Of a stretch of DNA of 50,099 bases, positions 14,456 to 49,886 are shown one piece after another. The first letter of the stretch is position 1. Each line of letters begins with the position of its first letter. The position numbers and the translations under genes were made by a program. The stretch comes from Candidatus Yanofskyibacteriota bacterium (GTDB taxonomy: Bacteria; Patescibacteriota; Minisyncoccia; 2-02-FULL-40-12; IGHO2-01-FULL-4-A): positions 1 through 50,099 of the forward strand of contig CAIUCV010000008.1 of NCBI GenBank assembly GCA_903897805.1. The letters run 5' to 3'. The notes under the pieces were generated by a model. It ran no database searches, was not told the DNA's origin, and saw only the letters and a program-made list of their open reading frames with translations.

Positions 14456-14468
14456 ACCCCATTTATTC

Positions 14469-14485
14469 ACGTCTTGCGATGACGT
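14469..14485 (+). repeat. REP-like palindrome, copy 1 (upstream of RAYT)
   Basis: ACGTC TTGCGAT GACGT. Confidence 0.85.
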
Positions 14486-14510: not shown

Positions 14511-15200
14511 ATGGAAATATATCACACTTTAAATCGCGGGGTGGATAAACGAGAAATTTTCATGGATAATCAGGACCGCTTTCGTTTTATCCATGATCTA
14601 TACGTATTCAATGATAGTGATTTAATAAATACGGGTTACTGGGATTTTAAAAAAGCGAATGACTCCGGACTCAACGTCATCGCAAGACGTAGCATCGAGA
14701 AAAAACGAAGAAAAATGCTTGTCGATATCCACGCTTTTTGTTTGATGTCTAACCACTATCATCTTTTACTAAGTCCCAAAATTAAAGGTGGAATTCCAAA
14801 GTTTATGAAGAAGTTAAACATGGGCTATGCAAGATACTTTAACGAAAGGTACAAAAGAAAAGGAGCACTATTTGAAGGAAGGTACAAATCTATACCCGTA
14901 ATGAGTGAGGAACATTTTGGATTTATTCCTCAATACATCCACTTTAATCCGCTAGATCTAATAAGTCCGGAATGGCGGAAAAATCAATTAGTTGATTATC
15001 AAAAAGCGATAAATTTCTTGGAATCATACCGTTGGAGCAGCTATTTAGATTATGTTGGAAAGAAAAATTTTCCCTCGGTGACTAACCGTGGGTTTATATT
15101 AGACTGCTTTGGAGGAGTTAAACAATATGAAAACGATACTAAAAAATACCTGGAAGAATTAGACATAAAAAGCTTGGGAAAATTAACTTTAGAATCCTAG
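14511..15200 (+). mobile_element. REP-associated tyrosine transposase (RAYT, Y1_Tnp/IS200-like)
   Basis: HTLNRGVDKREIFMDNQDRFRFIHDL, HAFCLMSNHYHLLL (HxH-like), FEGRYKSIPV, YIHFNPL; probable start is ATG 14511, in frame with the listed ORF 14367-15200. Confidence 0.85.
14674..14690 (-). repeat. REP-like palindrome, copy 2, inverted, inside the RAYT ORF
   Basis: ACGTCATCGCAAGACGT = reverse complement of copies 1 and 3. Confidence 0.85.
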
Positions 15201-15207
15201 CCAATTC

Positions 15208-15224
15208 ACGTCTTGCGATGACGT
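15208..15224 (+). repeat. REP-like palindrome, copy 3 (just after RAYT stop)
   Basis: ACGTCTTGCGATGACGT; flanking ATTC also shared with copy 1. Confidence 0.85.
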
Positions 15225-15861: not shown

Positions 15862-15895
15862 GCCCTATTCTTACTACAACTGTGCCAGTCAGTCA

Positions 15896-15947
15896 ACCCC
15901 ATCAAATAACTCTTTTAGAGTTCCCGCTTTGCGGGATTTGACGGGGT
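15896..15947 (+). repeat. 52-nt two-hairpin palindromic element, copy A (intergenic)
   Basis: ACCCCATCAAAT | AACTC TTTTA GAGTT | CCCGC TTT GCGGG | ATTTGACGGGGT, contiguous. Confidence 0.85.
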
Positions 15948-15956
15948 CAATTTGGC

Positions 15957-17195
15957 CTATAACGGCCGCTCTGCCAAAGTAACCTGAACTGTTTTTTCCT
16001 GGCCTCCGCTTAATACTTTCAGCGTAACCGCATCTCCTACATTATGGGACTGGGTTGCTTGGGCTAAATCGTTATTTTGGTCAATCTTTTTCCCGTCTAT
16101 CTCCAAGATAATATCGCCTTCCTTAATCCCCGCTTTGTCCGCAGGCGAATTTGGGGCAACAGCTACATCGCTTGCACCGCTTCCACGAGTTACGAGCGCG
16201 CCATAATTAACCGACAAATTATTTTTCTGTTTTATGTCGTCGGTGACCAAAACATAACGGATGCCTAAATAGGGGTAACTTATTTTCCCGGTGGTTTCCA
16301 CCTGACTAATGTCTTTTTTCGCCTGATTTATCGGAATGGCAAAGCCGATATTTTGCGCTCCTTGCACAATAGCGGCATTCATGCCAATCACTTGTCCGGC
16401 AAGATTTAAGAGCGGCCCGCCCGAATTGCCCGGATTAATTGCGGCATCGGTTTGAATAACCTCACTTAATGTTTCCGAAGAACCGCCGCCTTCCGAAGCC
16501 GTAATGGATCTTGAAAGACCCGAAATGACCCCTTTGGAAACCGAGTTTGAAAACTGACCGAGAGCATTGCCGATGGCAATGACCGTCTGACCGATTTGCA
16601 AGTTGGCGGAATCGCCCAAAGTTAATGCCGACAAACCGGAGGCGTTGATTTTCACAACGGCCAGATCCTGCACCGGGTCTCTCGCCAACACTTGGGCGGG
16701 GTATTTTTTGCCATCGTTAGTAATGACGGTATAGTTGGCGCCACTGATGTTTACAACGTGCTTATTCGTCAGAATCAATCCGCTGGCATCAATGATGAAA
16801 CCTGAGCCGGCCGCGACTTGCTGAGTTTGGGTTTTGGGCGGTTGAGAGGGTGTGTCGCATTGATTGCCTAAAAATTGCTTGAAAAACGGGTCATCGCAAA
16901 ATTGCTGGAAAGGATTCTGCTGTTCCACAATGGCGACATCTTTGGTCGCGACGATACTGACAACGGCAGGCGAGGCCCGCTTGACCGCGCTTACAACCTT
17001 GGACTCTTCGTCGGTAACCGGCTGATAGGCGTTGCTTTTAGCTCCCGTAAGATGCTGTATCAACGGCGCCGCGCCTTGGTTAAAAAATGTTGCCCCGTAA
17101 TACCCGAAAACCCCGCCGACGACCGCGGAAACCAAAAAGCTTACGATTACTGTCATAATCAGCTTATTTTTAAACATTCGTTTTAAGTTTTTCAT
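15957..17195 (-). CDS. HtrA/DegP-like trypsin-like serine protease with PDZ domain
   Basis: GSGFIIDASGLILTNKHVV, DLAVVKI, NPGNSGGPLLNLAGQVIGMN, C-terminal PDZ (SPADKAGIKEGDIILEIDGKKI). Confidence 0.93.
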   Translation of the reverse strand: MKNLKRMFKNKLIMTVIVSFLVSAVVGGVFGYYGATFFNQGAAPLIQHLTGAKSNAYQPVTDEESKVVSAVKRASPAVVSIVATKDVAIVEQQNPFQQFCDDPFFKQFLGNQCDTPSQPPKTQTQQVAAGSGFIIDASGLILTNKHVVNISGANYTVITNDGKKYPAQVLARDPVQDLAVVKINASGLSALTLGDSANLQIGQTVIAIGNALGQFSNSVSKGVISGLSRSITASEGGGSSETLSEVIQTDAAINPGNSGGPLLNLAGQVIGMNAAIVQGAQNIGFAIPINQAKKDISQVETTGKISYPYLGIRYVLVTDDIKQKNNLSVNYGALVTRGSGASDVAVAPNSPADKAGIKEGDIILEIDGKKIDQNNDLAQATQSHNVGDAVTLKVLSGGQEKTVQVTLAERPL

Positions 17196-47309: not shown

Positions 47310-49886
47310 CTACTTGAACTCTATTTTTATCTCTTTATCAACGGAGAGGTCGGAATTTAAGACGAGATTGTCGCCAAGAAGCTGTAAGTCAGGACTTTGA
47401 TTTATAACCGAAGTGCCATCGGGTAATTTGAAACTGAAATTAATGTGGTCGCTGCCGGTCCCGGATTGTTTTTGCCAGTATAGAGCATATCCCCCGCCGG
47501 CTGCTCCAGTGACGGGTGTGTGGTATTTCAAAACAACCGATTTGGTTTGCTTCGGCTTTACGATGAGCCAGAATCCGAAAACGGTTTTGCCCGACTCCTC
47601 GGAAACATCCACGCCGGCAACGGGATGAGAAACGTTCCCCTCGATCCGCTCAAGGTCGGAATCGCGCTTGAATCCATCGTAATTTATTAAAGGCGTGAAA
47701 TCCGTTATTGATTGGCCGACTACGCTTTCCAAAACCGAACCTTCCGGAACGAAAACTTTTACATAGGCGGAGTTGTCCCTGTTGTAGAATCCGTATTGAG
47801 AATCTCCTCCATTATGAATGCGGCTGATTGTAAGGGCATGCTCTGCACCACCATCGTTTCCCAGTGATGTTTCCAAATTGAAAGAGCTGTCGGTTACAAA
47901 GTCTGTCTTGGAGCCCTTCACGTTTGCAAAAACTATTTCCAGAAAATCCCCCGCGGTTTGTTTGATTTCGCCGCCAAGTCCGTTTTCAACCGCCGTTTTT
48001 TCCAAACCGGAATCGTCAAAATAGGCCAACATGTGTTTTTCTTCTGCAGCTTTTGTGATTATCTTGAAAATCTCAATCCAATTATTCTTGTCCTGCTCGC
48101 CCAATTTTTCAAAAAACTTCGGTTGGAGATCCGTGAGAATTTTTTTTGGCTTCGCTCTGTCCGCTTCGTACTCAACCTCGTTCTGGATCTCGGCAAGGAA
48201 ATTATCAGCGCCAAGCTTAAGACCGTATTCGGGCATGTCAATCGGCCCGATTATCTTCAGCATATCAGCGATGACATCCGGGGTTATTGCCAATACGCCA
48301 TCAACTTTGCCGCCGCCGTCTTTTTGATAAAACTCCTCAACCTTTCTGGCCGAGGTGGGGAAATCGGTAAACCAATTGGCATCGCGCATACCCCAAGTCG
48401 GAGTAATGTGCTGCATTTGAAGCGGCGGAATAATATTTTCTTTAAGGTTCGCATCTATCTGATAGATGTCGTCCACAAAAATTTTCTTCAGATAACCGTT
48501 TTCAAAAGTCACCAAAGCATAAGTTCCGGGGAAGCCGCCTGTTGGCCTGAGCTCGCTGTTATTCTGCAGCAAAACAAGGTAGGTCTTCTTGCTATTACCA
48601 CCCAAAAATTTCAAAAGAAAATCCGAATAATTGATGGCATTGCCGATATATTCCTGAAGTTGAGGAATTTTTTCCTTAAAATCCAATAAAAGGGGCTGTT
48701 TGCCCACGGGAATTACTGAAACATCTATGTCGGCAAGCAAACTGCCGGCTTTTTTAATATTTTGGTCAGCGCTTACCAAAACGGCTTTAAAATTTCCAAG
48801 TAATTCTGAAAAGGATTTTGAGCCTGAACTCGCCTGTCCATTCAAGAAAGAAAGGGGGTTAGAATTATATAACGTCCCCAAGGCCGATGCCAAATTTTCG
48901 CCGGCCTTGGATATGCTGCGACCCGCTTCAACCAGATCATTCGCCGCTTTTATTTTACCCAAGCCCGGCAGGTTGCCGAAGACAGAAAGGAAAGAAGCTC
49001 CAAGCTCATTCAGGGTACCAGAGGCCTTATTGAGGTCATCGTAAGCCAAAGCGAAACTATTTGCCGCATCTTGAAACTTGAAATCCTCAAGTTTCTGCTT
49101 CGCGTCTTCCAGATTAGCGACCGCGTTACTCCCGTTCTGGACAATATTATTTCTGGCCCAAATGCCGCTTTGCGTCGCCCACCACACCAATGCGCCGACG
49201 GAAACGAGGCCTACAAAGAAAATTAAAAGTTTTGGAATATATTTTACGACTCTTTTCGCGTTTTTCTGCCTCGCCCCCCGCCATGCGGCATGGGGCTTCG
49301 CCGATATTGAACCGAGATGAGTCAGCCAAAAATCAACTTCTCTGGAAGCGGGGGTAGACCCCGTCAAATCCAGCGAAGCTGGTGCCGCAAGACGGCAATT
49401 TGACTGGGTAGATACCGGGGTCGCCCAAATATTTTTAGATTCAACGGCTCTCTTGATCGGGGCTACCTGTGCAATTCTTGGCAAAGAAACTGTCTCAGTT
49501 TCCTTTTTTTCTATACTCGCTTTCGCCATTCCCGCCGCAACAAGAAAGCGCGGTTTTGATTTTTGCCTTACTAAAGAATGTATTTGAGCGCCGGCTCTGG
49601 CCAGTTCAGCTATGGCATCAACTGGCCCAAGGAGGACATCCTCCAGCTCGCGAAGGATGGAGGTTTTCTGGTCTGGCAACGGCTTGTCGGCTTTTTTTAT
49701 AACGGGAGCTTGCGGTTGAACAACTTGGTGCTCAATCAGGGTTGGTCTGGCAGGTTGCGGAATGGTCGGTTCCTCTCTTAGGTTTATTTTCGTTCTCACC
49801 TGTGATATTTTTTCAAAATCCAAACCACCCGATTCTTTCACCGGTTTAACATCAAACATCGCCAAAAGGATATTATTCCTCGGCAC
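47310..49886 (-). CDS. DUF4012 domain-containing membrane protein
   Basis: YLVLLQNNSELRPTGGFPGTYALVTFENGYLKKIFVDDIY; TM segment LLIFFVGLVSVGALVWW. Confidence 0.88.
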   Translation of the reverse strand: MPRNNILLAMFDVKPVKESGGLDFEKISQVRTKINLREEPTIPQPARPTLIEHQVVQPQAPVIKKADKPLPDQKTSILRELEDVLLGPVDAIAELARAGAQIHSLVRQKSKPRFLVAAGMAKASIEKKETETVSLPRIAQVAPIKRAVESKNIWATPVSTQSNCRLAAPASLDLTGSTPASREVDFWLTHLGSISAKPHAAWRGARQKNAKRVVKYIPKLLIFFVGLVSVGALVWWATQSGIWARNNIVQNGSNAVANLEDAKQKLEDFKFQDAANSFALAYDDLNKASGTLNELGASFLSVFGNLPGLGKIKAANDLVEAGRSISKAGENLASALGTLYNSNPLSFLNGQASSGSKSFSELLGNFKAVLVSADQNIKKAGSLLADIDVSVIPVGKQPLLLDFKEKIPQLQEYIGNAINYSDFLLKFLGGNSKKTYLVLLQNNSELRPTGGFPGTYALVTFENGYLKKIFVDDIYQIDANLKENIIPPLQMQHITPTWGMRDANWFTDFPTSARKVEEFYQKDGGGKVDGVLAITPDVIADMLKIIGPIDMPEYGLKLGADNFLAEIQNEVEYEADRAKPKKILTDLQPKFFEKLGEQDKNNWIEIFKIITKAAEEKHMLAYFDDSGLEKTAVENGLGGEIKQTAGDFLEIVFANVKGSKTDFVTDSSFNLETSLGNDGGAEHALTISRIHNGGDSQYGFYNRDNSAYVKVFVPEGSVLESVVGQSITDFTPLINYDGFKRDSDLERIEGNVSHPVAGVDVSEESGKTVFGFWLIVKPKQTKSVVLKYHTPVTGAAGGGYALYWQKQSGTGSDHINFSFKLPDGTSVINQSPDLQLLGDNLVLNSDLSVDKEIKIEFK
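49358..49409 (-). repeat. 52-nt two-hairpin palindromic element, copy B (inside the DUF4012 CDS)
   Basis: minus strand ACCCAGTCAAAT | TGCCG TCTTG CGGCA | CCAGC TTC GCTGG | ATTTGACGGGGT. Confidence 0.85.

Follow-up and report, generated by a model that had tools for sequence, protein, structure and literature searches.

Discussion of palindromic insertions in frame has centred on Rickettsia, and isolated cases are known elsewhere; the family of Patescibacteria elements described here widens the phenomenon. Mobile double-hairpin elements, with two hairpins and compensatory stem changes, are found in fungal mitochondrial DNA. Rickettsia palindromic elements (RPEs) are about 150 bp long (PMC10969869) or consist of REP-like CGTC units (PMC3733652), and their targets in Rickettsia include truB and dnaE (PMC3733652, PMC10969869). 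CGTC-tagged REPs form head-to-head dimers, which are mirrored pairs of short hairpins, often with unlike stems (Di Nocera 2013, PMC3733652). Each unit has an 8–9 bp stem starting with A-T, a loop of 4–5 nt and a CCA tail; some copies are intragenic (polA, dnaE, truB and tRNA synthetases), no dedicated transposase has been found, and the list in that paper does not include Patescibacteria (PMC3733652).

The window, the whole 50,099-nt stretch of Candidatus Yanofskyibacteriota DNA that was analysed, contains two copies of a two-hairpin element, referred to as A and B. The first-pass annotation had placed them at 15896–15947 and 49358–49409, and both the positions and the letters were verified in the sequence. 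The features are as follows.

15893–15950, no strand assigned: copy A, whole unit with 4-nt direct repeats TCAA (15893–15896 and 15947–15950)
15897–15907, plus strand: left arm of copy A, CCCCATCAAAT, pairing with 15936–15946
15908–15922, plus strand: 6-3-6 hairpin of copy A, AACTCT-TTT-AGAGTT
15923–15935, plus strand: 5-3-5 hairpin of copy A, CCCGC-TTT-GCGGG
15936–15946, plus strand: right arm of copy A, ATTTGACGGGG
15957–17195, minus strand: htrA-like trypsin/PDZ protease; copy A starts just beyond its stop codon
49355–49412, no strand assigned: copy B, whole unit with 4-nt direct repeats TAGA (49355–49358 and 49409–49412)
49359–49369, plus strand: arm of copy B, CCCCGTCAAAT
49370–49382, plus strand: 5-3-5 hairpin of copy B, CCAGC-GAA-GCTGG
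49383–49397, plus strand: second hairpin of copy B, TGCCG(C)-AAG-(A)CGGCA, 5 bp and a C/A mismatch (T-G wobble on the other strand)
49398–49408, plus strand: arm of copy B, ATTTGACTGGG
47310–49886, minus strand: 858-aa ORF with a DUF4012 domain, host of copy B

The arms of A and B differ at two positions, and compensatory changes affect four of five pairs in one hairpin and one of five in the other, exactly as counted earlier. The 5-3-5 geometry given for one hairpin also holds; the other, described as 5-5-5, is better read as 6-3-6, the sixth pair being the T-G wobble in copy B. Copy A is intergenic, lying between htrA and a 210-aa ORF. Copy B is not: it is inserted in frame near the N-terminus of the DUF4012 ORF, where it reads STQSNCRLAAPASLDLTGST, a feature that the first-pass annotation missed here and in many other copies located within genes.

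The unit consists of 15-nt arms, TTYACCCNGTYAAAT and ATTTRACNGGGTRAA, around two abutting hairpins without spacers, and is usually 52–66 nt long (roughly 58). Across 96 copies, the first hairpin is 5-3-5 with few exceptions, and the second is usually 6-3-6, its stem ranging from 3 to 9 bp; the arm consensus, TTYACCCNGTYAAAT with its near-complement, reads CCCNGTYAAAT. The inner parts of these copies have a mean two-hairpin score of 10.7, against 0.68 after shuffling, a control that bounds the preference of best-split scoring for pairing. Together with the covariance-model E-values (2e-21 for copy A in cmsearch), the comparison with shuffles shows that copies A and B are not chance structures.

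In 31 gap-free aligned copies of 58 nt, 96.8% of pairs are formed and 14 of 22 pairs have changed on both sides. Covariation reaches a score of 0.479, whereas shuffles score 0.139 and slid versions no more than 0.10. Because the arms were fixed by the first search pattern, only the hairpin pairs are free of bias in this result, and all 11 of them covary. Position 7 of the arm covaries as well (TA 51, CG 33, GC 9), and position 4 frequently lacks a partner, as in about a third of copies and in 12/31 of the aligned set. Among imperfect hairpin pairs, G-T (11) and A-C (10) are about equally frequent; with no strand preference, the fold appears to be kept at the DNA level. A closed three-way fold is thus maintained while the stem letters change, as had been proposed from A and B. 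The accompanying idea that fold rather than sequence is conserved applies to the hairpins, where letters change in matched pairs, and not to the arms, whose sequence is conserved.

The two loci, initially regarded as a conserved pair, belong to a dispersed family. Nine good copies, at unrelated loci, and one degenerate copy are present in the same genome (621,693 bases in 23 contigs). With a covariance model built from 12 copies, the family was detected in 12/45 genomes in the order; the class gave 60/384 and a phylum sample 17/287, all sequence data being metagenome assemblies; E-values per genome go down to 1e-22, the copies used for building the model matching by construction. The further copies have paired stems; the first-pass annotation had named a lack of further copies, or unpaired stems in them, as grounds for refutation, and neither was observed. 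A pattern scan of 84,980 GTDB genomes found 18 loci, all in Patescibacteria or in MAGs titled ‘bacterium’ (the titles being Patescibacteria, Moranbacteria/Moraniibacteriota, Yanofskybacteria, Staskawiczbacteria, Parcubacteria and MAG ‘bacterium’); the scan covered GTCAAAT arms only, GTTAAAT being commoner elsewhere in the class, and therefore gauges specificity and not range. Viral carriers were considered as well, and two IMG/VR matches without hairpins were set aside as chance or unrelated. In one genome (G165; L217, L218, L220, L221, L222 and L225), the element is central in a longer palindrome of roughly 150–230 nt, and the repetition of this palindrome carries several copies of the element with it.

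The element works like an RPE: it is palindromic and dispersed, it occurs in frame in unrelated genes, truB and dnaE among them, and its open frame encodes a recurring peptide. Unlike RPEs, it is 52–66 nt long, with a fixed arm–hairpin–hairpin–arm plan, stem covariation and a sequence of its own. RPEs occur in Rickettsia, whereas all 18 GTDB loci with GTCAAAT arms, the only arms scanned, are from Patescibacteria or MAGs titled ‘bacterium’, and no RPE model was among the NCBIfam matches of the element peptides. The element resembles the head-to-head dimers of CGTC REPs in its short mirrored hairpins, often with unlike stems, and in its intragenic copies, and it shares with them the lack of an associated transposase; its stems, however, are of 5 and mostly 6–9 bp, its loops are mostly of 3 nt, its hairpins abut and a CCA tail is missing. 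The CGTC (or TGTC/CCTC) tag of the REPs is unpaired and stands at one end of each hairpin, whereas the (N)GTC of the element pairs with the far arm, covaries at arm position 7 and becomes GTTAAAT in most other lineages. As in REPINs, there are two hairpins per mobile unit, and these bacteria commonly carry RAYT-like genes; unlike REPINs, the element has no GTAG tag in its CCCNGTYAAAT arms and no flanking or co-occurring RAYT. Miniature inverted-repeat elements (MITEs) have comparable features, namely terminal inverted arms (here of 15 nt), no coding capacity for an enzyme, dispersal and, in some copies, 4-nt direct repeats. The element differs in being shorter than usual and wholly palindromic, with flanks that mostly lack a clean duplication; no longer or autonomous element with the same arms was found in its own genome. 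The fungal double-hairpin elements belong to an organelle and show no demonstrated relation to it. The element therefore belongs to no family tested. No report of Patescibacteria elements of this type was found in the open-licence papers searched, and the family, separate from RPEs, is apparently undescribed.

Copies inside genes are a prominent part of the family: 34 of the 96 are in frame within ORFs of 140 aa or more, flanked on either side by coding sequence, and each contributes about 16–20 residues to the host protein. In 28 of these 34, frame and orientation are common, giving the peptide H/YPVKS...F[D/N]RVK. Host genes, which are often essential, include dnaE, polA, rpoC, ruvA, truB, rsmI, metG, gltX and argS, as well as a class II tRNA synthetase, ksgA, nusA, ssb, priA, murJ, rmlD and glycosyltransferases; hosts were named by Pfam, NCBIfam or sequence motifs, with priA, metG, argS and others named partly by eye. 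Copies nearer to gene ends are found in tsaD and miaA, the latter named by eye. In RuvA, the element coincides exactly with an alignment gap relative to a solved homologue. Lengths that keep the phase are found in 31/34 intragenic copies against 38/62 others, a difference partly built into the ORF test. Deletion of the element restores a spanning ORF in 3/64 other copies, and in one of the three (L099) only fuses neighbouring genes; gene-breaking insertions are therefore nearly absent. Selection for an open frame was considered separately and was not convincing: 28/33 copies of 58 nt are open, compared with 73% of recombined stems.

Orthologous genes without the element are present in related genomes, most clearly for a glycosyltransferase and for priA. 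In the former, GAAC-TTTA-50-TAAA-TTATCC in G013 corresponds to GAAC-TAGA-TTATCC in G010, a gain of 54 nt; in priA, AAAA-TTCA-44-TTAA-AATCACC in G033 corresponds to AAAA-TCAA-AATCACC in G009 and G015, a gain of 48 nt, and priA of G025 likewise lacks the element. Empty sites in dnaE, tsaD, metG, gltX and ssb are in less sharp agreement. The two clearest sites have each gained the core plus 4 nt, and the usual core of 50 nt therefore preserves the reading frame. Genes would tolerate the element because one of its frames is open and its usual net length is divisible by three.

Exact 4-nt direct repeats of the TNNA type flank five of the nine good copies in the genome of the window, but only 11/96 overall. 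Direct repeats are thus in the minority, the flanks seen most often being TTCA/TAAA and TTTA/TGAA (otherwise TTYA/TRAA), so that each element has one TTCA-type and one TTTA-type end (Fisher p 4e-5). This rule excludes a plain 4-bp duplication for all copies. As to which 4-nt end is native, the right side is favoured for dnaE and priA, and the left-native reading seems likelier for an aminotransferase site; the flanks may stem from a duplication or from a cleavage site.

Taken as a whole, the element is probably a non-autonomous mobile palindrome, a MITE-like double hairpin of Patescibacteria. The MITE- or REP-like mobile palindrome suggested among other options in the first-pass annotation is supported by the dispersed copies and the covariation, and its presence in some species and absence from others suggests movement. 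A recombinase acting in trans might recognise the arms together with a three-way junction that forms when the DNA is single-stranded or cruciform, and insert the element into short AT-rich sites of the TNNA type; no mobilising enzyme for the element was found. The only survivors would be insertions between genes or, in the mostly open frame, in a tolerant loop, where the working protein would retain a tag of 16–20 residues. Stem pairing would persist because unpaired copies fail to move, and template switching possibly helps to re-perfect the hairpins.

The paired stem changes might instead come from quasipalindrome correction, in which replication switches template at hairpins, with no selection on the fold. 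This would account for hairpin pairing that is 96–98% Watson–Crick with very few intermediates, and for related copies that differ by whole stems. Correction is evidently not general, however, as arm position 4, which is part of the same palindrome, is unpaired in about a third of copies; the conserved geometry (5-3-5 in the first hairpin) and arm letters also speak against this explanation, and dispersal is left unexplained. It is accordingly rather unlikely, although template switching and selection on the fold can act jointly.

A mobile palindrome might also be moved in the manner of REPINs, by an IS200/RAYT-type Y1 tyrosine transposase working through single-stranded DNA. Y1 enzymes recognise hairpins in single-stranded DNA, the only Y1 gene of the genome (14511–15200) is about 0.7 kb from copy A, and the unequal TTCA-type and TTTA-type ends with a gain of core plus 4 nt would suit a cleavage-site model. 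The distribution of the enzyme nevertheless makes this improbable. In the same 384 genomes, Y1_Tnp is present in 38/60 that carry the element and in 194/324 that do not (p 0.67), and elements are present without Y1_Tnp in G060 and G082, both 100% complete, and in G271, a single contig. Moreover, the local Y1 gene is flanked by an unlike hairpin of its own, TTCACGTCTTGCGATGACGT, and an arm search at 20 Y1 loci found element arms at copy A only. With no co-occurrence, Y1/RAYT was rejected as the general mobiliser. The TTCACGTCTTGCGATGACGT flanks of the local gene are exact direct repeats, and the hairpin is also present, inverted, within the coding sequence as ACGTCTTGCGATGACGT (window positions 14466–14485, 14674–14693 and 15205–15224). 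Most related Y1 genes are flanked by gene-specific hairpins, and an inner copy, exact or with one mismatch, occurs in L047 and L058.

A cis-acting RNA, such as a 3′UTR or terminator structure selected at each locus, is very improbable: copy A is located just beyond the htrA stop and would also fold stably as RNA (about −31 kcal/mol), but no curated Rfam model matches it, the adjoining genes are unrelated and orthologous sites are empty. The structured 3′UTR proposed earlier fails as a general explanation, since at least a third of the copies are within reading frames and the equally common G-T and A-C imperfections favour no RNA strand. Mobile bypass hairpins are known in yeast mitochondria, but a translational bypass element or tiny intron, skipped or removed from the message, is hardly credible here, as 31/34 intragenic copies are in phase with an open frame (in-phase copies being favoured by construction in the ORF test) and, with the main weight, ORFs split out of frame by a copy are almost absent (3/64 restored).

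The mobile palindrome may, as a tentative extension, represent mobile DNA that is inherited as a fold: it would have no dedicated enzyme at present, its arms would be conserved and its stems rewritten in pairs, its length and frame would suit translation, and it would seed short new segments into essential proteins throughout the phylum. The hosts have genomes below about 1.5 Mb, and genes for replication, tRNA functions and repair are affected. The copies provide a large natural set of loop insertions of about 16–20 residues with empty orthologues for comparison, which makes it possible to test selfish DNA as a source of protein segments and to look for an enzyme that reads a three-way DNA junction. 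They also caution annotators and structure modellers against taking such inserts for native sequence.

Two of the copies in the genome of the window, L023 and L026 (G000:C16:15177–15232 and G000:C21:13347–13402), are identical 56-nt units in unlike surroundings; each is followed, after about 10 nt, by an ATG start and may supply leader sequence to it. Further odd in-frame segments, LLTPFRGGGNETSAKAGRN, ASVGNRHACSKSGKNSHGCSL, DPSTSSGQ and SYAKASADAKALADKQ, occur in the host proteins of L095 (rsmI), L098 (miaA), L088 (polA) and L067 (gltX) and look like other palindromic families. At about the site of a relative's element, metG of G013 (L130), truB of G010 (L131) and ssb of G005 (L145) contain longer multi-hairpin palindromes, the one in ssb having related arms, CCCGTTAGAAAT; these three sites look like insertion hot spots.
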